DNA of 53,339 nt from a virus. The notes under the pieces are model-generated. The model was not told the DNA's origin. It did no database searches and worked only from the letters and a program-made list of their open reading frames with translations. Within the stretch, counting starts at the first letter, position 1, and the number at the start of each line of letters is the position of its first letter. The stretch covers positions 1 through 53,339 of the IMG/VR virus record IMGVR_UViG_3300022921_000024. One strand, written 5' to 3'. Positions 17,593 through 38,894 of the stretch are shown one piece after another. The position numbers and the translations under genes were made by a program.

Positions 17593-17600
17593 TATATTTG
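17593..17600 (+). promoter_or_regulatory. Promoter -7 box TATATTTG for the giant gene
   Basis: An exact TAnnTTTG match. The predicted transcription start (about 17604) lies after the ATG at 17598 and before the ATG at 17628, which decides the start of the giant gene. Confidence 0.7.
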
Positions 17601-17627
17601 TTGTGCTCAAACTTCAAGCACGACATT

Positions 17628-23600: not shown

Positions 23601-26600
23601 AAGGCTGAAAAGAATATGAAGCAATACGAGAAGGCTCTTAAGCAAATTGCAGACGACCTCGGATTGGATATAACAAACGTACAAGAATTAGAGCTGGCCC
23701 TTGAGGCGATGGCTGAGGAGAAAAACGAACAGCAGGACGCACGCCGTCGTGAGGTTATCAGTCAGGTTATTACGCCAACTGCTGTTATCTGGAGAAACTG
23801 GCTGGCCGCCGAACCAGACTTTGCAGACATCTTTGGGTTGGGTGCTCCAACTTCATCCACTAAGGTCTCTACGTCTCCTTGGATGTTCCTGGGATGGCAG
23901 GGTGGACTGAGTGCAGACGACCTTGCTCAACACATTGAGGCCCGTATGGACCGCTTGTCCTTTGGTCAGCTGCGCCGCGTTGAGTTTGCTATGTTTGACT
24001 ACATTGTAAACGGACGAGCCCTCGGAACAAGGGCTCTTGGAGCAGAGGTGATGGCTAGAAATGAGGGTCGCGACGAAATGGCCGCATTGAATATGACTGC
24101 CAGCGACACCCGTGAAAAAAAGGGCGGAGCAATTCGCAACTGGATTTTCTCAAACCTAGAGACTACCCCTACGTTCTTTCGCCGTATCTTCTTGCTCAAC
24201 AGCGAGACACAGGTTGCTAAGTATATGAACGCCCTTGGATTCTCTTCGCTGCGCTCTAACGCCGCCAAGGCTGACGTTCGACACGCTACGGTTATGGGGT
24301 CTATCAACGAAATGCTACAAGGCTATAAGTTGAACAACGCCTACAGTGAGACCGCACTGCAAATCTACGCTATGGTTATGCAGAAGCCTGCGGGAATGGC
24401 TCCCGCCGAGTGGGCTTTGGCATTGCGTAAGCAGTTTGAAATGGCTGCAGAAAAGGACAACCGATACAACGCAAAGGTAATGGAGCAGAAGAAGAAAGCA
24501 ATTAATGACTTCTTCTTTGGGCCAACTGGCGCGCTACAGCTTGAGCAAATTCAGGCTAAACTTGAGGCTGTTGATAATCTTACTGCCGCCTGGTCCTTTA
24601 TTGGAAACTCATTCCAAGTGCGTGAGCACCTGCTGGCTGACTACGCTGAGGCCTTCTTGGGGCAGCGTTTTGTGTCGGAAGAAAACTACATCCCATTCTC
24701 ATTCCGCCGCGGTGGAGACATTGAGACCTTGCAAAACCAAGTCGACAACGCCAAGACCATCCGCACAATGTTAGACTCTTACAGTCAATCAAAGATGGGC
24801 AAGAGAGCAAGTGCTACATTTGAGCGTAATCCGGACGCCATTAAGACGTCGGGCCGTTACATCGACCTCAACTTCTTCGGAACCATTGACCGCACTCACA
24901 AGGAGAACGAGGTCAAGATTGCAACTTCCGTTGATGTGTCATATATTTCTGAAATGACTTCTGAGAGAAATGATGCATTCACAAAGAGCGTCCCTTCAGA
25001 GGCAGTTCGTTCTGATATACGTCAGAAAGTATACGACCACTTAATTGACCAACGTAAGACGTTTGGTGACGAGGCCCTTAGCCCAACTGCAAAGAAGTGG
25101 ATTACTCAAGGTCGAAGTGCTATGGTTCTTTACTACTTCGGTGCCGTTGTTGACCAGATTGCAAAGCAGTCCGCGCCTATGTGGAATACGCTTGCAGAGA
25201 CTAAGAACTTTGATTCCAAGATGGAATTCCTAGGCTCTTTGGTTGGTCAGTTTAACTCAGAGATTCGAGGAGTCCTTTCTGGAGATATGGACGCCAAACA
25301 GCAGTTGTCAAATAGTTTTGACATTGGAAACCGTAACGTTCGTGACGCTGTTATATCATTTACTGGCGACCGTCCGGCTACTGGAGATAAGACTAGTTTT
25401 GAGAAAGGCGTAGACCTTTCTACAAAGTCACTTGTTGTGACCGATAAGATTGTAGCGGGTGCGTCTTGGTTTGCATACTATAAGGATTGGCATTACCAGA
25501 ATGGAATGAAGCCATCTGAGTGGTCTTGGCAAGAAGCCGCAAAGAGCCCAAACTCTGAGGCCGCTGAATACGCATCTTTGATGGTATCTAAAGACCAGAA
25601 CATTTCTACCGGTCGTGACGCATCTAAGTTCAACCGCTCTACTGGAGGTATTAGTATCGGTTTGGTTAAGTCATTTATGATTCCTTTCGTTGACTTCTTG
25701 ATGAACAAGAAGATGAATATGATGATTGACGCTCAAAAGTTAGCCTTCGGTAGCGCAAAAATTAAAGGAGACGCTATTCGTTCTACTGCCGGAACAGTTG
25801 CGGAGATTGCACATTTCCAGACTATGGCCTGGATGGTATTATCTCCCCTATATGCCGGGTTGGGTGCTATGGTTGCGTCAATCTTTGGAGTTGATGACGA
25901 TGAAGATGACTCTTGGTTCTCTGAGAAGTTCAACCTAGATATGTGGAAGCGCGGTATGATTACTGACCTAAACCCATACGTTATGCCATTCAAACTGATG
26001 GAAGACGGATGGATTGGTATGTGGAATATGGCTAACTACTACACGAGCGACGAGCGCGAGGCATTGGTCGCACAGACTGGAGACGAGCGCAAGGCTTATG
26101 ACATATGGCTCAAGGTTCAGGGAATCCCGTCATTTGGAGGAGTTCGCGATGATGCAGACGCTATGCAGAAGGTTCTTTCGTATACTGGCCCGGCCGGTAG
26201 TATCGTGAGCAATTACACTTACGGTATGAGCAACATAGCGACACTTCAGGAGGATGTTCCATACTACGTTACGTCTAGCGGAACAAAGAAGTTCCTCACC
26301 GAGGACGAGGCTAACAGAATGACCGCAATTGAGGCATTTAAGGTAACGTACCTTACTTTTGGCTTTGCTACCGGATTAATGTTTAAGGAAGTTAACTCAG
26401 CAGTTAAGTCTGCAGAGCGAGGCGTGACAAAGCGAGCGGTTACGAATGAGGACGTCGGCTTGGACCGAGTTATGGCAGAGCGACTGATGAACAAACTAGA
26501 AGGTCAGGAGTTGACTATGGATTTATTCTACGAGGCTATTGTTGAGGAGATTAAAATTAATCCACTTGGCGCAGAGGCTTTTGGTTCAGCGCGAATCAAG

Positions 26601-26957
26601 GGTATGGAGAAGTTCTTTGCGGAGAACATCCTAAAGTCAAATGCAAACTTAGGTCCGGCACTAAAGTCTCATATCGCCACTATTCGCGATGTAGACCGTC
26701 GCTTCAAAGGAAATGTTGAAGTTGCATTTGCCCTTCATCAGGTTCGAGAAACATTGGGTCAGAAAGAGGGTGAGGACTTCGCTATGGCAGCGTTGCTGTA
26801 CTATGGCGCTCACGGAAAGTCTGAGATTCAAAACGCTATCCAACAGCAGATACTGTTCTATGGCGTAAACAATAGCATTCTTGGAGAGATTGCCCCTGAG
26901 TCAGAAGAGGCTCAGTATGATGACAATCACAACTACATAGACCCGAGTTTAAAGTAG
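17628..26957 (+). CDS. Giant internal virion / polyvalent protein with zincin motif, 3109 aa
   Basis: The protein starts MEPEEIKGKVERFQAAGVDK; an in-frame ATG at 17598 is rejected because the promoter box overlaps it. Visible parts include an Ala/Gly-rich hydrophobic region near residues 400-480 and another near 590. A zincin-type metallopeptidase motif HEAYH (H829, E830, H833) is followed by a downstream acidic helix EEIWAEMRAD (E892 a possible third ligand). Long helical Lys/Ala/Gln segments follow. A C-terminal region with several hydrophobic helices (WFAYYKDWHYQNG, IGLVKSFMIPFVDFLMNKK, TMAWMVLSPLYAGLGAMV) resembles large polyvalent-protein-associated domains. Giant proteins of this design are injected with the DNA in podoviruses. 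The protease could act on host or virion proteins on entry. I see no RNA-polymerase DxDxD signature and no obvious transglycosylase. Confidence 0.75.
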   Translation: MEPEEIKGKVERFQAAGVDKETITGWFKSKNIGGWESYYDPNYGQSGKANAASAGSGASAATTGSTSNNGGGSFLSAYKPQQTQITDPTEGGLYTEEEVRAKRADKFQSGSRLQTMEAAGDLAYNLNTLQTTLGDMQAMFERGAQARAEGKSFEDAFPNLTTDYVSGLTEEQKAQNALSSSATFRQEKPFQDYMLGSYQALESLNVKVSALVDEKEQDQGFKENMARAGFDGSMSLQQALNQYTPSIVSYTNEANSAFAGAGANEIVTVDENGVSINEDAYNNLAVTMDAFQKEQDERLAQERKTLEGHGDLWQFGYDMMTGVKNISMDLEGMYTEIVGTDSEMESLQYEQYLQGFRRTASLQLDGLSNEEIEKGVVENILEGNFDAGFSILTTDLAQTMPQLAAQAAITYGTGGFGSLALRGAAGTAARFGMTGTARSLATSTFARNMSYWAGAGFMGSTTAGNTLISTYGTMEDSQRYQMAVGNAVVETLSERLFVGDIKAVLGTELKGLTRREIRQRVFGTGLFSSEMRALSADLAKKSGKQFLKNAGEEGLEEFVAGLGSAWIEGFVTGKPMQINYAELADQFLIGAAAGGAAGSVGAAKRGNFLKASFASVGVLSSNYVNIRAERVAAEEAVRNARDEAEASRLQGRAQALAAVEAQTRGEEIAILENMTDEQLGTATTLYHRIRNAAFVANNEKATEEEKQAAILDGKKANAELKALKEQTAPAGLVAEREREAVANFDFGTEGTIEVSDKTDAQGSSFVAELSKIATALGGNKVLLHKDYDAAAASAGKNKEDLLGSRGFYKADDGSIHIVLPAAQSNTAFHEAYHAIARNVDPKYLKNWLAASMPALMELPTELQNKYAAYFEKYGNDKSEQGKRLLAEEIWAEMRADIATGKITVENSGSALSHGIAGAMNAALRGLGLKINKYQSFKDFSDFMDATTESLKKGTQVGRFQEERFDAPTTNRDVLSQMEKSGVDGSIDPQTFLFTINSQNAQQATQEPNKPADPAVVTETASTAVRQAAKGLSEGSSINLTNEGPANPVDGYMVGDGRNEIQISKSEITEMTPQQLSEKISSIVEQYQGDGFAEMEGKPHLGVFVEGDMVTIDRSHQVASVERGMDIAITNSERSIYDVANDKVIETQDVKSDNLMFQIDPAAIPAGETIKLKKGKYGSSVMRAGIPMKNFQQVVADFRAQYGKDPVIALWMGDQSGYGVYTLTDGSTTNLEGGLGHLINKDNMAKGVAWATNKSDGGVQGVLQNADIVAEVSGHPVKSSRFYKKTTEVMAREFAIAWKKSAGKTIKHGKYEVVVPKMPKGSNEVDAIKSYMTLVIEAYRNDGKAAPAQFENILTQGKKVGTVQYINLSEIENLEDLVNNERRTSLIANVLGSFEATKSTQEALAALGMPTEEQITDQLRDGYLLENEFQEGDIYGYYMPKRENGRVVTQPGNHSTYQTDIMGEMVAVASERQNVFDMVPAFYHLRELKTTGRARIKAAQEQGLTDAGGKITKDGKIVRRIELTIVEPDVNVDELSDKEAESIVKRIARAAKAKFESGELTRDQYEFFYSGKSGRVSTDVAADLQRMRVMNSQATIVQANAMLATMAAGMTWEQKVDAMNKQVARFKDAGYKAADISTFLDEFYGDLRDEMGDVGKAGYPQYGHSQTGEGLLFQSGLYIDIANMLAGGKTEAQVRAQLIADGFSVNDAKLLVAKAKGYKIGMNAGRRAGHKSAMEIHTERMKAQREKEKDSTKAFRNEAKGRLLNMNQINDELVNALVEMVEKYGNVKLTSAQLKSILRGISATQKKIYKKGMADDGKFALTVVALVDRLANIIEKQHTAKQIAEQNDLLRKVRAKQKALKNQLAKLPKTSRSPLISYFDEVNELTSVEAGHLSMASLKALDGGLDALKETTKQVSATTNKSGQVVIRNPYVLINGKQIDFRRAKVYFNELVAPLTIEANAYEQALIAADIQNYMDATGADFASASAAIMQAKAEKNMKQYEKALKQIADDLGLDITNVQELELALEAMAEEKNEQQDARRREVISQVITPTAVIWRNWLAAEPDFADIFGLGAPTSSTKVSTSPWMFLGWQGGLSADDLAQHIEARMDRLSFGQLRRVEFAMFDYIVNGRALGTRALGAEVMARNEGRDEMAALNMTASDTREKKGGAIRNWIFSNLETTPTFFRRIFLLNSETQVAKYMNALGFSSLRSNAAKADVRHATVMGSINEMLQGYKLNNAYSETALQIYAMVMQKPAGMAPAEWALALRKQFEMAAEKDNRYNAKVMEQKKKAINDFFFGPTGALQLEQIQAKLEAVDNLTAAWSFIGNSFQVREHLLADYAEAFLGQRFVSEENYIPFSFRRGGDIETLQNQVDNAKTIRTMLDSYSQSKMGKRASATFERNPDAIKTSGRYIDLNFFGTIDRTHKENEVKIATSVDVSYISEMTSERNDAFTKSVPSEAVRSDIRQKVYDHLIDQRKTFGDEALSPTAKKWITQGRSAMVLYYFGAVVDQIAKQSAPMWNTLAETKNFDSKMEFLGSLVGQFNSEIRGVLSGDMDAKQQLSNSFDIGNRNVRDAVISFTGDRPATGDKTSFEKGVDLSTKSLVVTDKIVAGASWFAYYKDWHYQNGMKPSEWSWQEAAKSPNSEAAEYASLMVSKDQNISTGRDASKFNRSTGGISIGLVKSFMIPFVDFLMNKKMNMMIDAQKLAFGSAKIKGDAIRSTAGTVAEIAHFQTMAWMVLSPLYAGLGAMVASIFGVDDDEDDSWFSEKFNLDMWKRGMITDLNPYVMPFKLMEDGWIGMWNMANYYTSDEREALVAQTGDERKAYDIWLKVQGIPSFGGVRDDADAMQKVLSYTGPAGSIVSNYTYGMSNIATLQEDVPYYVTSSGTKKFLTEDEANRMTAIEAFKVTYLTFGFATGLMFKEVNSAVKSAERGVTKRAVTNEDVGLDRVMAERLMNKLEGQELTMDLFYEAIVEEIKINPLGAEAFGSARIKGMEKFFAENILKSNANLGPALKSHIATIRDVDRRFKGNVEVAFALHQVRETLGQKEGEDFAMAALLYYGAHGKSEIQNAIQQQILFYGVNNSILGEIAPESEEAQYDDNHNYIDPSLK

Positions 26958-29726: not shown

Positions 29727-29856
29727 CTTTATCTAAGATTGGTTTACGGTCTAGCCAAGTGCGGTACATACGTGCCGCTACAGCAATGCGCTGTGGGTAG
29801 AATGGGTAGCTCTTACGCAACCGAGCAAGGGCTATCCTGATAAACTGGTCTCTCAT
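29704..29856 (-). CDS. Small basic helical protein, 50 aa
   Basis: Reads MRDQFIRIALARLRKSYPFY and then PQRIAVAARMYRTWLDRKPI before a short acidic tail. Its start overlaps the stop of the ATPase gene (TGATG), and its 3' end overlaps the zinc-finger gene by 23 nt. Coupling to the ATPase suggests a partner in replication, but no family is recognised. Confidence 0.55.
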   Translation of the reverse strand: MRDQFIRIALARLRKSYPFYPQRIAVAARMYRTWLDRKPILDKDDIDGIY

Positions 29857-30815
29857 CAGAATTCAATGTTTTTTTGTTCCATCACCTTGGGTTCGGTATG
29901 CTTTGGGTGACTATAGGTCCGCGTACCAAACTCATCCATCACATAGTACCTGTTGCTCAGTCTATCGTAATACATATACAATGAGCCAACATTACCAACA
30001 GCCTTCGGCTTTGCTTTTACAACACTAATCTTTACCTGATTAGGTTCGTATGGAATACCGTTCTCGTCTTCCAGTCCATATGGGCAACGCCATACGTTTA
30101 TCACCATCATACCCTTGCGTGACCACTGCATACCTCCGGCAATATCGTTCATCGTCGGTACGTCAACATAAGGGATGCCGTTCTTGTACTTCGCCTGTTG
30201 ATGTTTGGTGTGTACGGTAACGATGGTATGGTAATCCTTATCGCTAGAATGTTTACGCACTCGCGTTAATATGTTTCCAATGGCGATATCGTCCCGTACT
30301 CCGGCGTTTATATCTGTCTTTATCTCCGTGAATGGGTCTACCAGACAACCGTCTATCTTAATTCCTCTGTTCTCTATCTGCTCTACGGCAGTATAGAATC
30401 CTTCAATGCTCAGGTCCTTAAGCCCTGAATCAATAACGAAGAAGTGCTCTCTGAGGAACTCTAAGGCATTCTGCGCCTCAACATCTGTAGCGTTAACCTT
30501 ATCATTGAGTAGGTATGGCTTACGAAGGTAGCACCACGCTAACTCGGCATAAACCTCAGCAGGACTTCCTGTCTCTGGAGTGTATACTGCCCACTTCCAT
30601 CCCTCAAACTGGGATAGGTTCATCATAAGTTCAAAGGCGAACTGAGATTTACCTTGGTGTGCTCCTGCGTAGATGTATGTGGTGGAGCCTCTCTTGATGG
30701 AGTACTTTTCAAACAGGGCATCAAAGCCTGTCCATTCGCCCTTCTTTACGCCTGTATGGCGCATATTTTTAAGTTGGGACTCCAACCTATCCAGTGTATA
30801 AATAAATTCCTGCAT
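29856..30815 (-). CDS. SF4/RecA-type ATPase, DnaB-like replicative helicase candidate, 319 aa
   Basis: The RecA-type core is clear: Walker A GAHQGKS (residues 51-57) after the strand STTYIYA, and WKWAVYTPETGSPAEVYAEL as the next strand. The Walker B region is IKIDGCLVDPFTEI, followed by HTIVTVHTKHQQAKY and a final SVVKAKPKAVG strand. This follows the DnaB/Twinkle family C-terminal domain, with no N-terminal primase or primase-binding domain (319 aa in total). It would unwind DNA at the fork, or act as a loader-type ATPase. Because no primase or polymerase is seen in the window, it probably recruits host enzymes. It is coupled to the 50-aa gene downstream. Confidence 0.8.
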   Translation of the reverse strand: MQEFIYTLDRLESQLKNMRHTGVKKGEWTGFDALFEKYSIKRGSTTYIYAGAHQGKSQFAFELMMNLSQFEGWKWAVYTPETGSPAEVYAELAWCYLRKPYLLNDKVNATDVEAQNALEFLREHFFVIDSGLKDLSIEGFYTAVEQIENRGIKIDGCLVDPFTEIKTDINAGVRDDIAIGNILTRVRKHSSDKDYHTIVTVHTKHQQAKYKNGIPYVDVPTMNDIAGGMQWSRKGMMVINVWRCPYGLEDENGIPYEPNQVKISVVKAKPKAVGNVGSLYMYYDRLSNRYYVMDEFGTRTYSHPKHTEPKVMEQKNIEF

Positions 30816-30835
30816 TTCATTTTGGTTTAAGAGTT

Positions 30836-31081
30836 TTATGTTGCTTGGCCAACCACCTTTGATTCGTACACCTTCATCACTTCTAGACGGACAATCTTCT
30901 TACCCTTAAGCCCTAGCTGCTGTATAGCAAAGGCGTAGTTTACATTGTCCTTTGTGATGTCTTCGGGGGATGTGTAGCGAGAGATTGCGTACCCATTTTT
31001 ATAGTGGTTTATCAATGCGCTTCCGCGCTTTGTGGACCACCGGTACTGAACCTCGTGATGGTAGATGTTCTTGTCTTCCAA
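30836..31081 (-). CDS. Hypothetical protein with TTG start, 81 aa
   Basis: The frame has no ATG before residue 69 (VMKVYES); the most 5' usable start is TTG (31081-31079), followed by EDKNIYHHEVQYRWSTKRGS. The protein is mixed alpha/beta with KKIVRLEVMKVYE near the end. It lies 20 nt upstream of the ATPase gene. The rare start implies low expression, or a start I cannot place. No family is recognised. Confidence 0.55.
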   Translation of the reverse strand: MEDKNIYHHEVQYRWSTKRGSALINHYKNGYAISRYTSPEDITKDNVNYAFAIQQLGLKGKKIVRLEVMKVYESKVVGQAT

Positions 31082-31143
31082 TTTAAAAAGTGGGGGTTTC
31101 GTGGAATGGTCCTACGCAAACCACTACTCCCCCCTATTTTTAA

Positions 31144-31383
31144 TTAGAACAAGTCATCGTTCGTAGCGTTGGCAGGCTGTGCCTGAGGCGTGTACTGTTG
31201 TGGTACTTCGCCATACCATTCGCCTTCTTTGTTCTTCTTGATGTCAAAGACCATCCAGCCGTTTTGGTTGGTTTCTCCTTTCATCATTTCAAAATCACGG
31301 GGACCCATAGATACCTTGATGATTTCTCCGTACTTGGTAGGAGTTGTCTTGAACTTGCCTACGTATTTGCGCTTGTTTTCCAT
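31144..31383 (-). CDS. Small beta-rich protein with SSB-like acidic tail, 79 aa
   Basis: An N-terminal beta-rich body (KYVGKFKTTPTKYGEIIKVSM, NGWMVFDIKKNKEGEWYGEV) is followed by a Gln/Pro/Ala linker and a tip NATNDDLF. The body-linker-acidic-tip design copies bacterial single-stranded DNA-binding proteins, whose DDLPF-like tip recruits host replication proteins. The body is shorter than a normal OB-fold, so this may be a mini-SSB or an SSB-interaction mimic. It starts 1 nt after the DnaA-like gene stop, within the replication block. Confidence 0.6.
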   Translation of the reverse strand: MENKRKYVGKFKTTPTKYGEIIKVSMGPRDFEMMKGETNQNGWMVFDIKKNKEGEWYGEVPQQYTPQAQPANATNDDLF

Positions 31384-31384
31384 T

Positions 31385-31819
31385 TTAGTCGTTTGTTAAA
31401 AGTTGCTTAATGTGGTTCAGCTGGTCTTTAATTTTCTCAACTGTAACCTTTAGAATCTTGACCTCCTTGTGAAGGTCTTCATACGTAACTCCTACGTTTT
31501 CCAGAGAGTTTGTAACTCTATTGTATAACGCTGAGTATCTTTTGTCTGCCATCCTATTGTCGTGAGACATTACATAGGTATGCGATACCTTTAGGTCAAC
31601 GCCTAGGATATCTGAGATTGATTGGTACGTGTAGCCATTTTCACGTAGAATCACAGAGACGAGGCTTCGCACGTTTAAAACCTCTTTCTTTCTAGAGCCT
31701 CCTAGGAGTTCGTCTATGTGGACCATACCTGCTTCGCAGGATAGTTCAATGACGGACCTAGACAGCTCATCAAAGGAGCTTAATCTCTGCTGCGCGGTAG
31801 GGGTTGAATTCATTTTCAA
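31385..31819 (-). CDS. DnaA domain IV-like DNA-binding protein A, 144 aa
   Basis: Residues 43-88 read RKKEVLNVRSLVSVILRENG, YTYQSISDILGVDL and KVSHTYVMSHDNRM. This matches the DnaA C-terminal helix-turn-helix: a long helix, SY-x-x-I-x-x-x-xG, then (D/S)H-T-x-V-x-x. No AAA+ ATPase domain is present. The C-terminal third is a coiled coil (VKILKVTVEKIKDQLNHIKQ), so it likely dimerises. It should bind DnaA-box-like or phage-specific sites. A related protein is encoded at 33053. The 5' end overlaps the nuclease gene by 50 nt; the ATG three codons in is an alternative start. Confidence 0.7.
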   Translation of the reverse strand: MKMNSTPTAQQRLSSFDELSRSVIELSCEAGMVHIDELLGGSRKKEVLNVRSLVSVILRENGYTYQSISDILGVDLKVSHTYVMSHDNRMADKRYSALYNRVTNSLENVGVTYEDLHKEVKILKVTVEKIKDQLNHIKQLLTND

Positions 31820-32504
31820 GAAACAATTGTTTGTATTTAGATATAGCCTCTTGAGCCTTTATGGCCCCTTGGACTATGAACTGAGACGAGCACTCGTAGA
31901 TTCCAATGTCGTATGGGAACGACTTTGTGATGACTACGAAGTAGAACTTCTCAACTCCAAACAGATGGCAGTAAACTGCTGCCTGTTGGTCATAGCCCAT
32001 ATACTTAGCAGAGCGACTAAACTCGGACAACTCACCACCTGTGGTCTTTACGTCTACGAGATAGGCTGGAGCGAAGTCCCTCTCAACAACAAGGTCTGCC
32101 TTGCCTTTGATAGGTATTCCATCCCACTCCCCAATAGCCGGAACTTCTGGGGTGCTATCCGTGTACATAAGGTCACAGGCTTCAGGACACTTCCTTAGAG
32201 CCTCGTTCATCTTGTAAAGGGTATCTGCATCTTTCTGTGTGAGAATAATCTTCTCTGAGTTTTCTTCACAGAACGCGGTATAATCTTTACCTCTACGTGT
32301 TCCTTCAAATCCAACGAAGACTTCCTTGTCCTCCAGTGCAAGGGCGTGGAACGCCTTGCCCATCTCTAGAGCGTTGGAAGAAGAGTCCAAACCCTTCTTA
32401 TTCAACCACATATAGAAAAGCGATGGCGACTTATGTAACAACTTCAATGAAGAGTTAGTTAGGTACTCCCGGTCGGCGTAGTATTCTTCGTCAGATTCAA
32501 ACAT
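31770..32504 (-). CDS. RecE-like exonuclease (PD-(D/E)XK, DUF3799 type), 244 aa
   Basis: It starts MFESDEEYYADREYLTNSSL, where Y-x-x-x-x-x-L-(S/T)xSSLK is the usual RecE/DUF3799 opening. GKAFHALALE carries the conserved H53, then IPIKGKADLVV has D137, VDVKTTG has D151 and K153, and YDQQAAVYCH has the conserved Q and Y. These are all core positions of the lambda-exonuclease/RecE nuclease. It would resect double-strand ends for the annealing protein encoded just upstream, with which it overlaps (TGATG). A GTG one codon earlier is possible; I chose the ATG. Confidence 0.85.
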   Translation of the reverse strand: MFESDEEYYADREYLTNSSLKLLHKSPSLFYMWLNKKGLDSSSNALEMGKAFHALALEDKEVFVGFEGTRRGKDYTAFCEENSEKIILTQKDADTLYKMNEALRKCPEACDLMYTDSTPEVPAIGEWDGIPIKGKADLVVERDFAPAYLVDVKTTGGELSEFSRSAKYMGYDQQAAVYCHLFGVEKFYFVVITKSFPYDIGIYECSSQFIVQGAIKAQEAISKYKQLFLENEFNPYRAAEIKLL

Positions 32505-33007
32505 CACAAGCCTAGTTCAGCGATTTGTTCTTTGCTTGCTTCGTACTTCTTTAAGGCTTCACGAACCTTGTCCTCCTTGCCCTCGGATAGCGCGACCTTC
32601 ATCTTATCCATCACCTCCGTAGTGAGAGGTTGTTTGGATGTGGTGAGGTTTTGCTTTCCAATGGCCACTTGAACTTCTTGCGCTGAGGCGATAGATGTCT
32701 CAATGCCGATTCCAAGGTTGGCTAGTGCGCGACCCCAGGCAGAGGTCTCAGCGTTCTCCACATACGAGGTCTTATTGACCATTGATGAGGAGCGGTCTTC
32801 CTGTGCTAGTCCCATCGCCACCACAGCACCTTCGGTGTTGCGGATTGATGCACGAACTACGCAGGAGTTCTCGTCTAACGAGAGGAGTTCTGTTTCAAGC
32901 GCCCAGCCGTCGTACCGGGGTTCAGTACGGAAGTACTTGATTCGCTCGTTGACTTCCACATACTGCTTACCGCGGATGTTGGTTGTCTTGAATTGATAGT
33001 TTGCCAT
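32504..33007 (-). CDS. ERF-like single-strand annealing protein, 167 aa
   Basis: A beta-rich N-terminal half (KQYVEVNERIKYFRTEPRYD, WALETELLSLDENSCVVRAS) is followed by ASIRNTEGAVVAMGLAQED. The signature V-N-K-T-S-Y-V-E-N-A-E-T-S-A-W-G-R-A-L-A region follows, ending in a helical linker. The block ENAETSAxGRALANLG is shared by phage ERF/Rad52-like recombinases and ssDNA-binding proteins. It should anneal single strands made by the RecE-like nuclease. It is the first gene after a good promoter, so it and the nuclease probably act early in replication or recombination. Confidence 0.7.
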   Translation of the reverse strand: MANYQFKTTNIRGKQYVEVNERIKYFRTEPRYDGWALETELLSLDENSCVVRASIRNTEGAVVAMGLAQEDRSSSMVNKTSYVENAETSAWGRALANLGIGIETSIASAQEVQVAIGKQNLTTSKQPLTTEVMDKMKVALSEGKEDKVREALKKYEASKEQIAELGL

Positions 33008-33052: not shown

Positions 33053-33517
33053 TTATATCCCGCAATAACGATTCTGTATTTTTTCAATGATTCCATTAGC
33101 CAGTATCTCTGACTGAACGTGGTCCAAGTCATTTAACTCTATAAAATCTTGGATTTTATCTAGTATGTTAATCTGAAGGGACTCTCTGTTGTCAGTGTTT
33201 ATACCTAGCATCACTTCACAGTAATCTATGATTGACTTGGTGTTTTCATACGCCTTGTGTATGTTGCCCTGAGAACCTTCAAGAAGGCTCTTTCCTCTTC
33301 TACAAGCGTGGATTATCGTTGAGTGATTCTTCTTCATAGCATTGGCTATCGTCTGATACGACATACCGTAATAGTTTCTAAAGAGTAGCGATACGCAGCT
33401 TCTGTAGTCCACATAGGCGGCGTACCTATGTTCAGCTGTTATATCAATTCCAACTCTGGACTGGAGTTCATCTAAAGTTCGTCTAAGTAGGAGTGATGCT
33501 TCTGCTTGTTCAATCAT
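33053..33517 (-). CDS. DnaA domain IV-like DNA-binding protein B, 154 aa
   Basis: Residues 30-80 read RYAAYVDYRSCVSLLFRNYY, then GMSYQTIANAMKKNHSTIIH and ACRRGKSLLE. This is a close copy of the DnaA C-terminal pattern: long helix, SYxxIAxxxxKxHSTxIHAxxR. The protein lacks an ATPase domain, and the C-terminal 70 residues are acidic and helical. Its gene starts about 80 nt from the CTATATAG repeat cluster, making it a good candidate to bind those sites. It is a second, diverged relative of the protein at 31385; the two differ at most positions outside the motif. Confidence 0.75.
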   Translation of the reverse strand: MIEQAEASLLLRRTLDELQSRVGIDITAEHRYAAYVDYRSCVSLLFRNYYGMSYQTIANAMKKNHSTIIHACRRGKSLLEGSQGNIHKAYENTKSIIDYCEVMLGINTDNRESLQINILDKIQDFIELNDLDHVQSEILANGIIEKIQNRYCGI

Positions 33518-33593: not shown

Positions 33594-33710
33594 CATATAT
33601 AGGGTTGCCCCTTTCACTATATAGGGTAAGAAAACCCCTAAAGGGTTTTCTATACTATATAGAGTATATACTATATAGAGTATATATACTATATAGGGCA
33701 TACTATATAG
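33594..33710. repeat. CTATATAG palindrome cluster 1 (five copies plus hairpin)
   Basis: The 8-bp palindrome CTATATAG occurs at 33617, 33655, 33671, 33689 and 33703 (start to start 38, 16, 18 and 14 nt), with a degenerate ATATATAG at 33594. Three copies are followed by GGG. Between copies one and two a hairpin GAAAACCC/GGGTTTTC (33630-33637 with 33643-33650) occurs. The cluster lies between the coiled-coil gene and DnaA-like gene B. It is a likely iteron or operator array. Confidence 0.8.
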
Positions 33711-34101
33711 GGAGGTAGAACTTAAGTCCTTCAAGAGCTTCGTCAAGTCGCAACTTGAGCCTCTCGTTCTCCTCTTGCAATTCTAGGCACTGGCCTCTGG
33801 CTAGTGTTAGGTGTTTGGAGAGTTCAGCATTTTGCTGAACTAAATCGCTGTTCTTTGCAATCACATCCCTATGTTTCGCTCTTGCCTCATCTATCTTCCC
33901 AGATATAGAGGCTATGTCATCCAAACGAAACTTGTACTTGTAGGTGAATTCGGAGAGGCCAAGGTAGGCCTTCTCCAAATCTCCACGTAGAGGGCTGTTT
34001 TCTTTCGTTAGAGAGCGTAACACCCCTGCTAGAGTATCCAAGTATGCGTGAGCGACATTAAGGTCGTTAAACGCAAGGATTTCATATTCGTCCTTAACCA
34101 T
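33703..34101 (-). CDS. Coiled-coil protein, 132 aa
   Basis: From the ATG at 34101 the protein reads MVKDEYEILAFNDLNVAHAY. Then comes a helical body and a C-terminal coiled coil (about residues 75-125: RDVIAKNSDLVQQNAELSKH and following). An ATG at 34125 would overlap the upstream gene by 32 nt; I prefer 34101, with an 8-nt overlap. The stop codon lies inside the last CTATATAG repeat. No family is recognised; it may be an oligomeric scaffold or regulator. Confidence 0.6.
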   Translation of the reverse strand: MVKDEYEILAFNDLNVAHAYLDTLAGVLRSLTKENSPLRGDLEKAYLGLSEFTYKYKFRLDDIASISGKIDEARAKHRDVIAKNSDLVQQNAELSKHLTLARGQCLELQEENERLKLRLDEALEGLKFYLPI

Positions 34102-34351
34102 TGAACGAATAGGTCTCGCGGTCAAACACTACCTCCTTAATTGATTCCGGACGTACACTGCGGTATCCATCCTGCATATCAAAGAAGTTCCAGTTCTCGT
34201 TCTTCAGTGTGCTTACGCCACCCTTAACGAACTTGTGTACGCCAAAGCGCCCACGAAGGAAACGCTCCTCACCATCTTTCTTGATGAACCGTACAGAGAA
34301 GAACTGTCCGCTCTTCTGGATTTCTGATTTGAGTTGATTCAGGTTTTTCAT
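34094..34351 (-). CDS. Small beta-barrel (SH3-like) protein, 85 aa
   Basis: After a helical start (MKNLNQLKSEIQKSG) come four to five short strands: FFSVRFIKKDGEERFLRGRF, VHKFVKGG and WNFFDMQDGYRSVRPESIKE, ending VVFDRETYSFNG. The order FSVxFIKKDGxxR, GV-x-K-x-V-K-G-G, FD-x-x-x-GYRS-x-x-x-x-x-I is a known small early-gene family in Bacteroidota phages, usually described as SH3-like. Its function is unknown. It has a TAACTTAG box upstream with a leader of about 20 nt. Confidence 0.65.
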   Translation of the reverse strand: MKNLNQLKSEIQKSGQFFSVRFIKKDGEERFLRGRFGVHKFVKGGVSTLKNENWNFFDMQDGYRSVRPESIKEVVFDRETYSFNG

Positions 34352-34374
34352 AGTTCAGTTGTTTTTTGTTTTTG

Positions 34375-34382
34375 CTAAGTTA
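34375..34382 (-). promoter_or_regulatory. Leftward promoter-like box TAACTTAG
   Basis: It differs from TAnnTTTG at one fixed position (TAnnTTAG). The spacing to the ATG at 34351 matches the other promoters, and a sister box TAATTTAG lies before the 41-aa gene. Confidence 0.5.
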
Positions 34383-34429
34383 CAATCGGTTGGTAATCAG
34401 TTCAATCACCATTTTAGGTCAATAAATAT

Positions 34430-34555
34430 TTAAATTGTTTCATCCTGTAGGTCCAGCTGACCAAGGCAATGGTTTAGCTGCTGATTGAGGAACTCGTTCC
34501 GCTGTTCAAGTGATTCAATTCTGTATTGTAAATACTTAATTAAGTTGGCATCCAT
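34430..34555 (-). CDS. Small helical protein, 41 aa
   Basis: Reads MDANLIKYLQYRIESLEQRN and then EFLNQQLNHCLGQLDLQDET; a single leucine-zipper-like helix. The heptad pattern suggests a homodimer. It has its own promoter-like box 33 nt upstream. No family is recognised. Confidence 0.5.
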   Translation of the reverse strand: MDANLIKYLQYRIESLEQRNEFLNQQLNHCLGQLDLQDETI

Positions 34556-34718
34556 AGTTTCTAGTTTTTAAGTTGTTTTTGTTTCTTCTAAATTACAAAG
34601 GCCTGATAACCAAAGCGTAACCATTTTTAGTCAAGATATCTCAAAAATTATTCATTTTCCAAATCACAGAAAAAATATTTCAAAAATCAAAAGTCCAGGA
34701 TTTTTTTCCCTATTCGCG
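34556..34718. other. AT-rich spacer
   Basis: No gene is seen. It contains the TAATTTAG box at 34588 and then an A/T-rich stretch up to the GC-rich island. Together with the island it forms the second long gap of the early region. Confidence 0.4.
34588..34595 (-). promoter_or_regulatory. Leftward promoter-like box TAATTTAG
   Basis: Same form as the box at 34375 (TAAYTTAG), with a leader of about 29 nt before the ATG at 34555. Confidence 0.45.
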
Positions 34719-34916
34719 TTAAGCGCTCAAAAGCTTGTAGGCATATGCGCCCGGAGTGTGCAGGAAACAATGACACGTAGCGCCCGCGCTAGGCGTTTTA
34801 TGCTCTTGATGTACCATCCGCCACGTGCACGCGTGCAGGTGCGCACACGGGTACATATAGGGCAGAAATTGACCCGGGGAAATTCCCGGGCCTTTTTCTC
34901 TGTTTTTTTGGGTCAT
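34719..34916 (-). CDS. Doubtful ORF, 65 aa
   Basis: The frame starts ATG 4 nt after the stop of the 64-aa gene (MTQKNREKGPGISPGQFLPY) and runs through a GC-rich, hairpin-filled stretch. The composition is odd (many His, Cys and Pro; ACTWRMVHQEH), unlike neighbouring genes. Position favours an operon member, but composition and the strong plus-strand hairpins favour a non-coding or structured RNA region. I list it only because the start spacing is good. Confidence 0.25.
   Translation of the reverse strand: MTQKNREKGPGISPGQFLPYMYPCAHLHACTWRMVHQEHKTPSAGATCHCFLHTPGAYAYKLLSA
34725..34911 (+). ncRNA. Candidate structured RNA with rightward terminator
   Basis: A GC-rich island in AT-rich surroundings. 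Stems: TAGCG/CGCTA around 34780-34795, and ATGTACC(34809-34815) with GGTACAT(34850-34856) enclosing a GTGC/GCAC-rich region. A terminal hairpin CCCGGG(34873-34878)/CCCGGG(34885-34890) is followed by CCTTTTTCTCTGTTTTTTT on the plus strand. The T-tract gives plus orientation, opposite to the flanking genes. No clear promoter box was found, so a stand-alone RNA is only a hypothesis. Confidence 0.35.
34873..34911 (+). terminator. Plus-strand terminator opposing the leftward operon
   Basis: CCCGGG(34873-34878)/CCCGGG(34885-34890) with loop GAAATT is followed by a 19-nt T-rich tract. It cannot end leftward transcripts (no T-tract on that side). It would stop rightward or antisense transcription. 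Confidence 0.6.
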
Positions 34917-34919
34917 TTT

Positions 34920-35114
34920 TTAGATGAAATTTAAACCCATAACGTAGGAACGGACCCGGTCCAGACTGCCGTCAATTCGCCATACTTTGGCCCAGTTTTG
35001 AAACCCGTTTTCCCGCGTCATATATTCGGCTCGCCAGTGGTCCTGGGCTAACTGAATCAGGACCAATTTTTTGAGCGTATTCGGGGCCTCTTTATATCTT
35101 GATAAATTAGGCAT
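34920..35114 (-). CDS. Hypothetical protein, 64 aa
   Basis: Starts MPNLSRYKEAPNTLKKLVLI and ends SYVMGLNFI. It is mixed alpha/beta with HWRAEYMTRENGFQNWAKVW in the middle. It overlaps the end of the GP88-family gene by 8 nt, so it is coupled to it. No family is recognised. Confidence 0.55.
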   Translation of the reverse strand: MPNLSRYKEAPNTLKKLVLIQLAQDHWRAEYMTRENGFQNWAKVWRIDGSLDRVRSYVMGLNFI

Positions 35115-35886
35115 ATTTTAAGACGTTTTTAGGGGTTAAAACTGACGAAACAGCGGCCCGCGTTTCACTGATTACGAAGCCCGACCCATCGCGCTTTGCA
35201 TCACCTTTGGCCCGTAGACCTAGGACCACGCCCGAAAAATTCAGCATCTCAATGTCGGAAGCGTCCCCGTCTACCACCCGGAACCCGTGCCAATATTTCG
35301 GCAATTCCTTACCTGCGAAAACGGCGGCAACGTTTACGCCAATTTTTAGCAATTGGAGCGCTTGCGCTTCGTTATCCTCAGAACGTGAAAAGGTGACACA
35401 ATACCGGTGCCCTTGTGAGGTGACCCGGTCCCCTGCTTTTTGTGCGATTTTGGTATAATCGTAAAAAACCACATTTGGCGCTATTTCGTGCCGGTCTGTT
35501 AACATTTCCACTAGTTTGAGGTCGCTCGTCCCGTTCAAACGTATGGCAATGTTTTGCCCGGTTTTTTTGGCCTCTTTTTTGGCTGCCTTGTTTATTTCCT
35601 GCGCTAATTGCAAAAGGAAGCCGGCCCGGTCCCGTAGTAGGTATTCAGTCCTGTTAATTCTGGCCTGCTGGACGTTGTTAAAACGGCCCCGGCCTGCACT
35701 GAAAAGACACGCCGCCCGGCAGCCTTCAGATGACTTTGGGCAAAGGTTACGCCCGGCGCTGTTTTGGCTCGCAGGACTCAGGTACAAAATATACGTTTGA
35801 AGGCTGTTTTTTGCTGTTTTGGCATTGGTGTCACCTGCGCTCAATAATTTGGCAGGGGTTCCGGTGGCTTTGTAGGTAGTTAGCAT
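35107..35886 (-). CDS. GP88-family (DUF7227-like) protein, 259 aa
   Basis: Blocks along the protein are AGDTNAKTAKNSLQTYILYL, ASQNSAGRNLCPKSSEGCRA (cysteines in C-P-x-S-x-GC-x3-C spacing), AGRGRFNNVQQARINRTEYL and IAIRLNGTSDLKLVEML. After these come VVFYDYTKIAQKAG, YCVTFSRSEDN, VNVAAVFAGKELP and FRVVDGDASDIEML, then VVLGLRAKGDAK. This series (NAKTAKN, cysteine cluster, RLNGTSD, FYDYTK, TFSxSE, VVDGDxxD) defines a family first named after mycobacteriophage gp88 and spread by phages and plasmids. Its activity is unknown. The clustered cysteines could hold metal or an iron-sulphur centre, and the alternating strands suggest a barrel. It is early and leftward here. Confidence 0.8.
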   Translation of the reverse strand: MLTTYKATGTPAKLLSAGDTNAKTAKNSLQTYILYLSPASQNSAGRNLCPKSSEGCRAACLFSAGRGRFNNVQQARINRTEYLLRDRAGFLLQLAQEINKAAKKEAKKTGQNIAIRLNGTSDLKLVEMLTDRHEIAPNVVFYDYTKIAQKAGDRVTSQGHRYCVTFSRSEDNEAQALQLLKIGVNVAAVFAGKELPKYWHGFRVVDGDASDIEMLNFSGVVLGLRAKGDAKRDGSGFVISETRAAVSSVLTPKNVLKYA

Positions 35887-35914
35887 TTTTTAAGTTTTAA
35901 GGGGTTTAAAATTA

Positions 35915-36061
35915 TCAGAGAAGGAAAGACCCGACCCAGCCGAAAAAGTGTACCACAATTGAAGCGAAGGCCATAAATAAGACCCCTGCAAGGGTGAGAA
36001 CGAAGGAGCCGGCAATTATTACCGCCCCCTTCTTTATTTGTTTTTTTGCTTCTGTTTTCAT
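35915..36061 (-). CDS. Small membrane protein, 48 aa
   Basis: A basic start MKTEAKKQIKKG precedes a long hydrophobic helix AVIIAGSFVLTLAGVLFMAF, continuing to a second short one (ASIVVHFFGWVGSFLL). Its ATG overlaps the upstream stop (ATGA). It may be an early inner-membrane peptide; no function is known. Confidence 0.55.
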   Translation of the reverse strand: MKTEAKKQIKKGAVIIAGSFVLTLAGVLFMAFASIVVHFFGWVGSFLL

Positions 36062-36297
36062 TGCTCAAAAAAATTAGATATAATATTTTCCTCAATTGCG
36101 GCCCGCAGGCCATCGGGTAAGCTTAATTCGTGCCCGTTTACCAATAGGCGGAACGGCTCTAAGGTATCAATGTAGGCGAATTCCCGCGTCATATGCTCGG
36201 CCCCTTCAATGCCTCGGCGCTGGGCGTACACCCCTTCTATAGATACCTGAATTCCTAGGCGCTCAGGGTCGCACCCTTCTAAATAAATCTCTTGCAT
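36058..36297 (-). CDS. Hypothetical protein, 79 aa
   Basis: Starts MQEIYLEGCDPERLGIQVSI. The middle EGAEHMTREFAYIDTLEPFR leads to LLVNGHELSLPDGLRAAIEE. The ATG at 36297 overlaps the upstream stop (TAATG), which decides it over a TTG three codons earlier. The order (REFAYIDTL, NGHEL) suggests a small mixed alpha/beta domain. No family is recognised. Confidence 0.55.
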   Translation of the reverse strand: MQEIYLEGCDPERLGIQVSIEGVYAQRRGIEGAEHMTREFAYIDTLEPFRLLVNGHELSLPDGLRAAIEENIISNFFEQ

Positions 36298-36428
36298 TAT
36301 TTCCAAAGGTTTAAAGGGTTAACGTTGTGGGCGCTGTTGTCCTGGGCTTGTTGTGCTTCTAATATTTGGCGAAGCGTTGGAGCCGTCAAGGGCTCTGTTG
36401 TGGCTCTCAGTATTTCTTTGAGGTTCAT
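36297..36428 (-). CDS. Small helical protein, first gene of the leftward early region, 43 aa
   Basis: Reads MNLKEILRATTEPLTAPTLR, then QILEAQQAQDNSAHNVNPLN and LWK. The frame continues 5' of this ATG, but the promoter box at 36458-36465 lies there. The predicted leader (about 26 nt, ending AACCCAAAAG) fits the other genes. It is the first early gene, so it is expected to be transcribed first, but no motif shows its role. Confidence 0.55.
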   Translation of the reverse strand: MNLKEILRATTEPLTAPTLRQILEAQQAQDNSAHNVNPLNLWK

Positions 36429-36457
36429 CTTTTGGGTTTGTTTTGGTTTAACTGGGC

Positions 36458-36465
36458 CAAATGTA
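36458..36465 (-). promoter_or_regulatory. Leftward early promoter -7 box TACATTTG
   Basis: Plus-strand CAAATGTA is an exact minus-strand TAnnTTTG. A TTG about 21 nt upstream fits the -33 element. This is the first promoter of the leftward early region and faces away from repeat cluster 2. Confidence 0.75.
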
Positions 36466-36708
36466 TACACAGACCACGCCCCCCCACAAGTCCCCGGTTC
36501 ACTTTGACTAATTCCGTGCACTATGTGACCAATAAAGCATAATTTCCACCCACTAGGCGCCCAGTACGGACCAAAAGTTGACCAAAAAAGGTATGACCGG
36601 AAATTGAAACCGCAGAAAGGTGGGTAAGCCACTCTGAGCGCGGGGAACTGGCTTTTGGGGAATGACAATTGTGTTCTAACATTGATGTTGTAACATATAT
36701 TCTCCATA

Positions 36709-36851
36709 CTGTATAGTATTTTGTAGATACTATATAGTGTATACTATATAGGGTATACTATATAGTATATATACTATATAGGGGTTTCTCTATATATAGA
36801 GCAATACCCTATATGGGTATTGCTAATACTATATAGGGTGCCCTATATAGT
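36709..36851. repeat. CTATATAG palindrome cluster 2 with hairpins (origin candidate)
   Basis: Exact CTATATAG copies start at 36730, 36744, 36758, 36774, 36829 and 36843, at 14-16 nt steps except for one 55-nt gap. That gap is filled by CTCTATATATAGAG (36788-36801, a 14-bp palindrome) and a hairpin GCAATACCC(36801-36809)/GGGTATTGC(36815-36823). A degenerate CTGTATAG lies at 36709. The last two copies form an inverted repeat with 11-bp arms ACTATATAGGG/CCCTATATAGT (36828-36838 and 36841-36851). Iteron-like spacing, AT-richness and the hairpin fit a replication origin or a master operator. Confidence 0.8.
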
Positions 36852-36919
36852 ACTGTCCCCATATATGTGTTCAGTTTATGGGAAGTGAAGCATTTAGATG
36901 AATGCTCATTCATTTGTTG

Positions 36920-36927
36920 TATATTTG
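36920..36927 (+). promoter_or_regulatory. Rightward promoter -7 box TATATTTG, near-leaderless
   Basis: An exact TAnnTTTG match ending 3 nt before the ATG at 36931, so the predicted start falls on the A of that ATG. It is the only exact box I found for the whole 36.9-53.3 kb operon. Confidence 0.55.
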
Positions 36928-36930
36928 GAT

Positions 36931-37212
36931 ATGAGCTTTGAAGAGTTGTTACTAGAGTTGCTGAAGACGTCCTTTCCCAAGGGTCCCTTGAAGTCTGAGA
37001 TGTTCAAGAAGCACAATGAGCTGGTAGGCAAGAGTGTCTACATCAAGAAGGCAGAGAGTGAGTACACGATGTGCGGAAGTTGCATTATGCGTGTCAAGAG
37101 CAATCTGTTCAAATACTACCACCACGAGTACGAGCCTAAGTTTGACTCGTTGGTGTTTATGGACAAGTATGTCTTAGATAAGCGTCCAGTGTATGGGGTC
37201 AATAAGAAATAA
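36931..37212 (+). CDS. Hypothetical protein ahead of terminase, 93 aa
   Basis: From the ATG at 36931 it reads MSFEELLLELLKTSFPKGPL, then KHNELVGKSVYIKKAESEYT, a CGSC pair and RPVYGVNKK at the end. An in-frame ATG at 36898 exists, but the promoter box lies between the two, so 36931 is preferred (leaderless). The protein is basic, mixed alpha/beta, and overlaps TerS by 20 nt. No family is recognised; DNA binding near the packaging genes is possible. Confidence 0.55.
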   Translation: MSFEELLLELLKTSFPKGPLKSEMFKKHNELVGKSVYIKKAESEYTMCGSCIMRVKSNLFKYYHHEYEPKFDSLVFMDKYVLDKRPVYGVNKK

Positions 37213-37651
37213 GGATGGTGTGGTCGTAAGAGGAATGGGTGCAGAACTCACCCCTATGCAGGAAGAGTTCTTGAACCGTATCCGCGAAGAGGGCATCAAC
37301 AACCAAGGCAAGATTGCCAAGGAACTTAACTACACGAGCTACTATCGTGATAAGTCAAACTACGGTACGGCCTTCCACTTAGCCCTGAGAGACGTTGTAA
37401 GGCTCTCTGAGGAACGAATAGAGGTGGCAAAGGGGAGTAACCTAGACTTACTCGTAAAGATGCGTGACGAGGCATTTTTGAACGGTGACACCAAGACGGC
37501 CCTTGAGACCATTAAGATTATAAATGATATGCAGGGCTACAAGGCACCCGTTAAGGTCCAGCAAACGAAGATTGATGTGAAGGCTACCATTGACCTCACC
37601 AAACAACCTGACGAAGACGAGGGCTTCATAGATATAGATTATGAAGATTAA
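37193..37651 (+). CDS. Terminase small subunit, 152 aa
   Basis: An N-terminal helix-turn-helix region (LTPMQEEFLNRIREEGINNQ, then GKIAKELNYTSYYRDKSNYG) is followed by an oligomerisation helix (LDLLVKMRDEAFLNGDTKTA). The C-terminal segment is GYKAPVKVQQTKIDVKATID and an acidic tail. The AP-K-x-x-x-T-K-I-D-V tail is typical of small terminases, which bind the packaging site and stimulate the large subunit. It overlaps TerL by 11 nt. An internal ATG at 37235 is an alternative start. Confidence 0.8.
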   Translation: MGSIRNKDGVVVRGMGAELTPMQEEFLNRIREEGINNQGKIAKELNYTSYYRDKSNYGTAFHLALRDVVRLSEERIEVAKGSNLDLLVKMRDEAFLNGDTKTALETIKIINDMQGYKAPVKVQQTKIDVKATIDLTKQPDEDEGFIDIDYED

Positions 37652-38894
37652 CTTATACAATCCCAGCAAACCGCAAAGGGATTTCCTAAAGGTCATCCAC
37701 GATGACAAGCCTTTTGTTACACTTATTGTTGCAGGGCGACAGACAGGCAAGACCTTTATGATGATGAACGACGCAGTAATGCGTGGTCTCAATAAACCCC
37801 GCACTAGGATGTTCTGGGTAAGTCCTATTCAGGACCAAGCCAATAAGGTTATGAAGGACATAGAAGCTGCCTTTATCAATCACCAAGACGTATTCCAGCA
37901 ACTTGTCAAACGCTTTGACAGGAAGAACAATGAGATGTACTTCCATAACGGGAGCTTTGTGAAGTTCCGCTCTGCGGACTCTGGCGACAACCTTCGTGGT
38001 GCGACATTAGACTTTATCTACATTGACGAGGCGGCCTTTATGAAAATTGACTTCATTAACGAGGTTTTGCTTCCTATGGTCACTCGTACCAGCGGGCGGG
38101 TGGTAATGTCTAGTACGTTCAATGGTAAGAACTGGTATTGGGAGTGGTATCAGCGAGGGTTGGTACCTGAGAACAAGGAAGACATCATTTCCATCAAACG
38201 AACCTATCTGGACCTTGACGACCCAGAGGTATCAAAGACGGTATTGGGGATTAAGAAGAATATGACCAAGGCGCAGTTTGACCAAGAGTTCCTCTGTCGT
38301 CCTGTGAGCGCCGATGCGCTCTTCAGCAACATTGAAGATGCTGTCTTCAAGCACCCAAACACCGAAGAATACGAAAGGATTTATATCGGGATGGATATTG
38401 GTGTCGCGCAAGACTATACGGTACTCACCGCTATGAACGAGCGCTACGAGGTGGTTGACATAGACCGTTTCCACTATAAGGAGGATGGTTTAACTTCGGA
38501 AACCTTCAAGCAGCGCATCAAAGACTTCTACTTCAAGCACGACAACAAGCTCGCCGCTGCCTACTTTGAATTAAACAACAACGACCTCCTGTTTGAGGAG
38601 ATAACGGATGACGATAACGTCTACAAGATTATCCCCTTCCAAACAACTGCCCAATCTAAGCCTGAGATTATCAGAAACCTCATCAAGTTGTTTGAGGACA
38701 AGATTATTAAGATACCTGACTACGATGAGCTGGTGAAGGAGTTGTACGACTTCAAAAGCAAGCGTAATCCAATCACCGGAAACTTGCAGTTCAGCAACAC
38801 TGAAGGCAAGCACGACGATATGGTTATGAGTTTAGCCATTTGCGCTTATTGCGCAAGGGAGGAGCAGGATGGTGGCGTAACGATGTTCTTATGA
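37641..38894 (+). CDS. Terminase large subunit (TerL), 417 aa
   Basis: The packaging motor has all expected motifs. Walker A is AGRQTGKT (residues 31-38), Walker B LDFIYIDE (123-130, catalytic E130), and the coupling motif SST is at 157-159. The RNase H-like nuclease has D252 in YIGMDIGVAQDYT, a middle acidic ELNNNDLLFEE, and a final D392/D393 in KHDDMVMS. Its length is normal for a single-chain TerL. This is the only TerL in the window, although two head modules are present. It overlaps the next gene by 4 nt (ATGA). Confidence 0.95.
   Translation: MKINLYNPSKPQRDFLKVIHDDKPFVTLIVAGRQTGKTFMMMNDAVMRGLNKPRTRMFWVSPIQDQANKVMKDIEAAFINHQDVFQQLVKRFDRKNNEMYFHNGSFVKFRSADSGDNLRGATLDFIYIDEAAFMKIDFINEVLLPMVTRTSGRVVMSSTFNGKNWYWEWYQRGLVPENKEDIISIKRTYLDLDDPEVSKTVLGIKKNMTKAQFDQEFLCRPVSADALFSNIEDAVFKHPNTEEYERIYIGMDIGVAQDYTVLTAMNERYEVVDIDRFHYKEDGLTSETFKQRIKDFYFKHDNKLAAAYFELNNNDLLFEEITDDDNVYKIIPFQTTAQSKPEIIRNLIKLFEDKIIKIPDYDELVKELYDFKSKRNPITGNLQFSNTEGKHDDMVMSLAICAYCAREEQDGGVTMFL

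Follow-up and report, generated by a model that had tools for sequence, protein, structure and literature searches.

We analyzed one IMG/VR virus record (IMGVR_UViG_3300022921_000024), whose full 53,339 b are referred to here as the window, and in it two clusters of the short AT-rich palindrome CTATATAG, designated array 1 and array 2. Our tentative but preferred reading is that they are paired recognition arrays (iterons) for a phage protein resembling domain IV of DnaA, most likely an initiator with a twin replication origin. The proposal draws on the structure of the arrays, on equivalent arrays at the same two positions in related phages, and on a gene for a DnaA domain-IV-like protein, HTH1, beside array 1.

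Counting over the whole window gave 11 exact copies of CTATATAG, five at 33617-33710 and six at 36730-36850, as the initial annotation had reported. The chance expectation is 0.64 copies in 53,339 b, and 11 copies were reached in none of 100 shuffles. The annotation had asked whether the motif is frequent elsewhere in the genome; not one exact copy lies outside the two clusters across the 53,339 b. Copies start at 33617, 33655, 33671, 33689 and 33703 in array 1 (spacings 38, 16, 18 and 14) and at 36730, 36744, 36758, 36774, 36829 and 36843 in array 2 (spacings 14, 14, 16, 55 and 14), in agreement with the 14-18 bp spacing described for most of them. Five further copies with one mismatch (33595, 36709, 36790, 36792 and 36809) also fall within the clusters. 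The motif had been called a palindrome, which is true of the core CTATATAG but not fully of the extended sites, where the flanks prefer ATA-CTATATAG-GG. A+T content is 68% in array 1 and 70% in array 2, versus 56% in the window. The hairpin noted in each cluster and the inverted repeat with 11-bp arms that closes the second were both located (Table 1). Tandem putative sites, an AT-rich stretch and an initiator-like gene close by, as expected of an iteron origin, are all found at the arrays. Searches for known RNA elements gave no match in Rfam and no tRNA. The hairpins are unlikely to be terminators, as they lack the long T run that follows clear terminators in the window.

To collect relatives, viral contigs were searched with TerL, which yielded 80 loci at 70-100% identity; paired arrays were tested in 33 loci (about 20 distinct phages). 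No TerL relatives were found in contigs of the genome collection, where host prophage copies might lie, and no close named phage in the annotated phage collection searched, in which TerL matches reached only about 27%. A single near-identical contig (L078) is the sole close relative carrying CTATATAG arrays. In the other relatives, a scan for clustered k-mers showed different repeats, likewise AT-rich, in the same two places relative to the genes. We then took the k-mers of each phage's own array 2 and looked for them across the remainder of its early region. In 30 of the 33 loci the array-1 position scored highest, with 18-66 shared positions versus 6-15 at the next place; the remaining three (L087, L147 and L153) end too soon or give nothing clear. 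Separation was weak in L134 and L128, and k-mers were shared less between arrays of unlike motif classes. Conservation of the arrays at the same loci in related phages, a check proposed in the initial annotation, was thus confirmed. Absence of the motif from close relatives had been named there as a point against the idea; CTATATAG itself is indeed absent, but arrays of other sequence stand in the same places.

Within a phage the motif is common to both arrays, and between phages it falls into about seven classes: CTATATAG in the window; AGTAACTATTATAG in L080, L082 and L085; ACTATTATACTA/GTATACTATA in L091 and L106; AGTATATACT in L094 and L100; TACTAATATA in L103; ATTATAATAGTA in eleven non-redundant phages; and ACATTATAATGTA in L150. 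Since the two arrays of one phage have unlike hairpins and flanks, a simple duplication does not account for their common motif, and the difference in motif class between phages implies a trans-acting reader. The paired arrays of relatives lie 3-6 kb apart, and nearly every array contains a perfect stem, mostly of 7-14 bp, with a loop of 3-7 b. In most arrays the best stem exceeded those of all 100 shuffles; the arrays of L150 and of class IV were weak in this respect. Stem sequences vary between relatives with pairing retained, in counts that are descriptive only, as the stems were picked by a pairing search; MAFFT alignment shifted the short stems, and the pair counts come from stems chosen for pairing. 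A small conserved open reading frame (ORF) with a D(D/A)EYQY-like motif ends at or inside array 1 in L151, L118, L119, L135, L128, L144, L103 and L100.

DnaA-like proteins near the arrays had been predicted in the initial annotation, and profile and model comparisons now place a DnaA domain-IV protein, HTH1, beside array 1. HTH1 belongs to the Pfam domain Bac_DnaA_C (7.4e-9; 36 bits against a cut-off of 31.5), and its family profile matched PDB 1J1V, DnaA domain IV, at 4e-12. Its AlphaFold2 model has a pLDDT of 88, and the top Foldseek matches were DnaA DNA-binding domains with probability 1.0 and E-values of only 0.03 and above. In the HTH1 family, the equivalents of DnaA R399 and H434 are at least 90% conserved and among the most conserved positions. 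HTH1 is not a full DnaA initiator: it has 154 aa without an AAA+ ATPase, and against TIGR00362 it scored 30 bits (cut-off 344) over the last 70 positions only. Among relatives it is the fastest-diverging shared gene; the homologue in L106, a class III member, had no Pfam match by itself. In 19 loci an HTH1 homologue is the first gene after array 1.

A link between CTATATAG and this protein type also appeared in records fetched solely for three clustered copies of the motif (n=75). Eight of the 75 had a DnaA-IV match: the near-identical relative and seven members of one lineage (L005, L034, L039, L050, L064, L065 and L072), in which no TerL homology to the window was detected. The control palindromes CTTATAAG and CATATATG gave DnaA-IV matches in 0/50 and 0/12 records, respectively. 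Members of this second lineage have a single array, followed by NinG-like, SSB-like and helicase genes and, further on, by exonuclease, helix-turn-helix and TerL genes. CTATATAG is therefore linked to the DnaA-IV protein type, in very few independent events; the motif common to the window and the second lineage may be either retained or convergent. Array count by itself was rejected as a diagnostic, because other AT palindromes also form triple arrays in viral contigs (12, 52 and 112 stretches versus 77 for CTATATAG); it is the DnaA-IV link, not the count, that sets CTATATAG apart. The 112 loci of the GTATATAC set gave no helix-turn-helix match within the fetched DNA, although GTATATAC occurs in class IV arrays. 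Many viral contigs hold triple arrays of CTATATAG, GTATATAC or CTTATAAG with no DnaA-IV-like protein detected (L001-L077, L237-L400).

The gene map agrees with the initial annotation in setting cluster 1 beside a DnaA-like gene and cluster 2 between divergent transcription units. Array 1 occupies the whole gap upstream of HTH1, between that gene and the end of a minus-strand ORF whose stop at 33703 it overlaps. Array 2 lies in the divergent gap, with leftward early genes on one side and the rightward terminase operon on the other, late genes running rightward from 36898. An ORF at 36297-36707 would abut array 2 but is probably spurious; without it the non-coding gap measures about 500 b. After HTH1 follow genes at 32504 (annealing-like), 31770 (exonuclease VIII-like), 31385 (HTH2), 31144 (SSB-like), 30836 (a small ORF) and 29856 (DnaB-like helicase); the assignments of 32504 as a single-strand-annealing-like protein and of 31144 as SSB-like are putative. 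The 79-aa protein encoded at 31144-31383(-) ends in NDDLF, or in DDxPF among relatives, which resembles the C-terminal tip of SSB. To the right of array 2, a late-promoter block is conserved across motif classes while the array motifs differ; the promoter sequence is thus kept as the motif diversifies. A start codon at 36931 would leave the first late mRNA nearly leaderless. TAnnTTTG-type -7 elements precede further genes, which suggests a host in Bacteroidota. A G-rich element to the left of array 2 is a possible cos/pac site or leader element. The late region also contains a very long ORF of 3119 aa at 17598-26957(+).

Table 1. Positions in the window of the arrays, their hairpins, the candidate reader proteins and flanking elements.
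Feature	Position	Strand	Basis or remark
Array 1: five exact CTATATAG and one 1-mismatch copy	33595..33715	.	Sequence counts
Array 2: six exact CTATATAG and four 1-mismatch copies	36709..36866	.	Sequence counts
Array 1 hairpin, AGAAAACCC-CTAAA-GGGTTTTCT	33629..33651	.	Relatives have equivalents with other stem sequence
Array 2 central hairpin, AGCAATACCC-TATAT-GGGTATTGCT	36800..36824	.	Read from the sequence; equivalents in relatives
Inverted repeat closing array 2, 11-bp arms formed by two motif copies, TACTATATAGG-GTGC-CCTATATAGTA	36826..36853	.	
HTH1 (P0003), free-standing DnaA domain-IV-like protein, candidate array reader	33053..33517	-	Pfam, profile, model
HTH2, second DnaA domain-IV-like protein, more conserved, alternative reader	31385..31819	-	Pfam Bac_DnaA_C 2.4e-4, below cut-off; alignment
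Replication/recombination genes left of array 1	29856..33007	-	Putative annealing and SSB assignments from sequence
First late genes: 36898/36931-37212, small terminase-like 37193-37651, TerL 37641-38894	36931..38894	+	
Late-promoter block: dyad TGAATG-CT-CATTCA directly upstream of TTGTATATTTG (Bacteroidota-type -7 element TAnnTTTG)	36899..36927	+	Adjoins array 2 in relatives too
G-rich element, CTC.GAGCGGGGGGAA type	36619..36650	+	Conserved in nearly all relatives, about 60 b left of array 2

We infer that HTH1 is the protein that recognizes the arrays, and that they serve replication. The small protein, a DnaA domain-IV-like helix-turn-helix with a variable C-terminal part and no ATPase, would be expressed from the operon headed by array 1 and would then bind the repeated sites, forming a nucleoprotein complex at each array around the AT-rich, hairpin-bearing core. 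The phage DnaB-like helicase and SSB would then be loaded at the arrays. The two arrays would constitute a twin origin, an initiation site and a second cognate site, in a layout like oriL/oriR of SPP1, and the same binding might also control the promoters around them. According to the portions of the SPP1 literature cited here, that phage has two origins with similar direct repeats and one binding protein, encoded with an exonuclease, an annealing protein, SSB and a helicase (PMC6316719); its oriL/oriR initiator is gp38 (PMC6316719, PMC3485210). As in those accounts, the window has two repeat arrays in AT-rich DNA at distinct loci, one of them beside the candidate initiator gene, and also genes for a DnaB-like helicase, an exonuclease and putative annealing and SSB proteins. 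The SPP1 origins are, by contrast, about 12-13 kb apart and in the same portions are not described as hairpin-centred palindrome arrays; the comparison is one of layout.

Several results weigh against this reading. We compared proteins with motifs by a Mantel test over 21 phages, always pairing array 1 of one phage with array 2 of a different one, which keeps positional homology from contributing. HTH1 correlated with the motif (r 0.41, p 0.004), but with TerL controlled for, the partial correlation was not significant (r 0.15, p 0.16); the recognition helix of HTH1 alone, at about positions 61-70, showed no correlation, and the pairs L080/L085 and L118/L128 have the same motif with very different HTH1. 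The strongest partial correlation belonged to the SSB-like 31144 (r 0.51, p 0.002), which we judged to be confounded by shared early-region ancestry and rejected as a specific pairing; an expectation-maximization motif fit recovered generic AT words only and was set aside. Linkage and fold, not covariation, point to HTH1 as the candidate reader, a pairing that is not established, and HTH2 is a possible reader. The GC-skew check proposed in the initial annotation gave a turn close to array 2, which coincides fully with the gene-strand switch and is confounded by it, and no signal at array 1; in the second lineage no switch was seen. The second-lineage records represent one lineage, so the control comparison contains few independent events. 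More distant relatives with DnaA-IV-like genes had no detectable array, no helicase loader was identified, and array 2 adjoins the late promoter. Moreover, the stand-alone DnaA-like proteins GafY and GafA are transcription activators by experiment (PMC11150451, PMC9638019).

This last point leads to the second-ranked explanation, a close rival that we regard as somewhat less likely: that the arrays are transcription-control sites at which a GafY/GafA-like DnaA-IV protein activates the terminase-first late operon through array 2 and regulates itself through array 1, with a sigma-like partner in some phages. In GafA of Rhodobacter and GafY/GafZ of Caulobacter, a DnaA-like protein with a sigma-like domain or partner serves both its own operon and one that begins with terminase (PMC9638019, PMC11150451). 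GafY, a homologue of the DnaA-like N-terminal portion of GafA, works at the promoter of gafYZ itself as well as upstream of the late cluster; the sigma-like GafZ binds a palindrome between -10 and -35 (PMC11150451). The arrays are placed similarly, at the operon of the DnaA-like protein and upstream of the late promoter, where a conserved dyad stands just before the -7 element. In 11 loci a sigma-70-like gene of about 240 aa lies between array 1 and HTH1 and overlaps HTH1 (L118:2492-3211, L151:3057-3785 and nine other loci), but the window and the relatives of most motif classes yielded no sigma-like gene. The array motifs hold ACTAT half-sites and the GafY element contains ACTATG (PMC11150451), a resemblance short enough to be due to chance; the mapped GafY site is a single element rather than an array, and the host phylum is likely to differ. 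In most relatives, moreover, array 1 reaches or almost reaches the start codon and overlaps or borders the ORF upstream, so that a separate promoter downstream of it would have little space, and the second-lineage array precedes early genes, not terminase. Nor does transcription control account for the hairpins, or for motifs that diversify strongly next to a late promoter that is conserved. We rank the initiator and twin origin first, because array 1 lies inside an operon that leaves little space for a promoter and heads replication genes, because the arrays carry hairpins, because the second lineage's array precedes SSB and helicase genes, and because motif diversification is separate from the late promoter. 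The two functions may coexist at the arrays, as they do for DnaA itself. The initial annotation had offered an origin or an operator system for early and late transcription: conservation of the arrays in relatives, the DnaA-IV protein, the AT-rich hairpins and the position of array 2 by the late promoter bear it out in part.

Paired repressor operators like OL/OR of lambda, exerting early and late repression and immunity against relatives of the same motif, are unlikely. A pair of multi-site palindromic arrays separated by 3-6 kb, the first at the gene of the regulator itself and the second in a region of divergent promoters, would suit such a system, a protein bound at array 1 would block transcription there, and the motif diversification among relatives resembles immunity typing. 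However, the genes beside array 1 are those of replication and recombination, hairpins are not expected of operators, and no integrase or CI-like repressor was seen among the genes searched, in an annotation that is not exhaustive and did not extend to all ORFs. Least probable of all is that the arrays serve packaging, as cosB- or pac-like recognition sites for the small terminase, or that another phage protein such as HTH2 reads them: array 2 does lie between the conserved G-rich element and the terminase genes, and HTH2 is DnaA-IV-like and conserved, but array 1 is 3-6 kb away beside HTH1 without a G-rich element, and after control for TerL the small terminase is not significantly correlated with the motif (partial r 0.09, p 0.29).

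If the preferred initiator reading is extended to the group, we would venture, with more reserve, that these uncultured phages, as a widespread group, use an ATPase-free DnaA domain-IV initiator and two hairpin-centred arrays whose motif has been repeatedly re-specified with position and architecture fixed, giving compatible and incompatible initiator/origin types. With bacterial DnaA and oriC the system shares the domain-IV fold, the conserved equivalents of R399 and H434 and repeats beside the gene; it differs in that the AAA+ ATPase and domains I-II are missing, that the sites are AT-rich palindromes rather than TTATNCACA, and that there are two arrays. Lambda OL/OR, lambda O and its iterons, and P4 ori/crr are familiar cases in which a phage protein has paired or repeated sites where replication or early expression is controlled; they involve other proteins and other site sequences.

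ATPase-less DnaA-like activators (GafY/GafA; PMC11150451, PMC9638019) and twin arrays served by one initiator (SPP1; PMC6316719, PMC3485210) are already known. If correct, the present reading would add a class of phage initiators or regulators that derive from DnaA, lack the ATPase and have their cognate arrays at two fixed loci. Its close relatives would then supply about seven natural motif classes for studying how a DnaA-type DNA-binding domain changes specificity. The reading also bears on whether phage replication initiators share an origin with the GafY/GafA-like proteins that regulate gene transfer agents, and offers a handle on an abundant phage group without a close named relative in the collection searched. 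In these phages, fixed positions combined with a differently spelled motif point to a co-evolving switch or start site for the copying of phage DNA or for gene expression.

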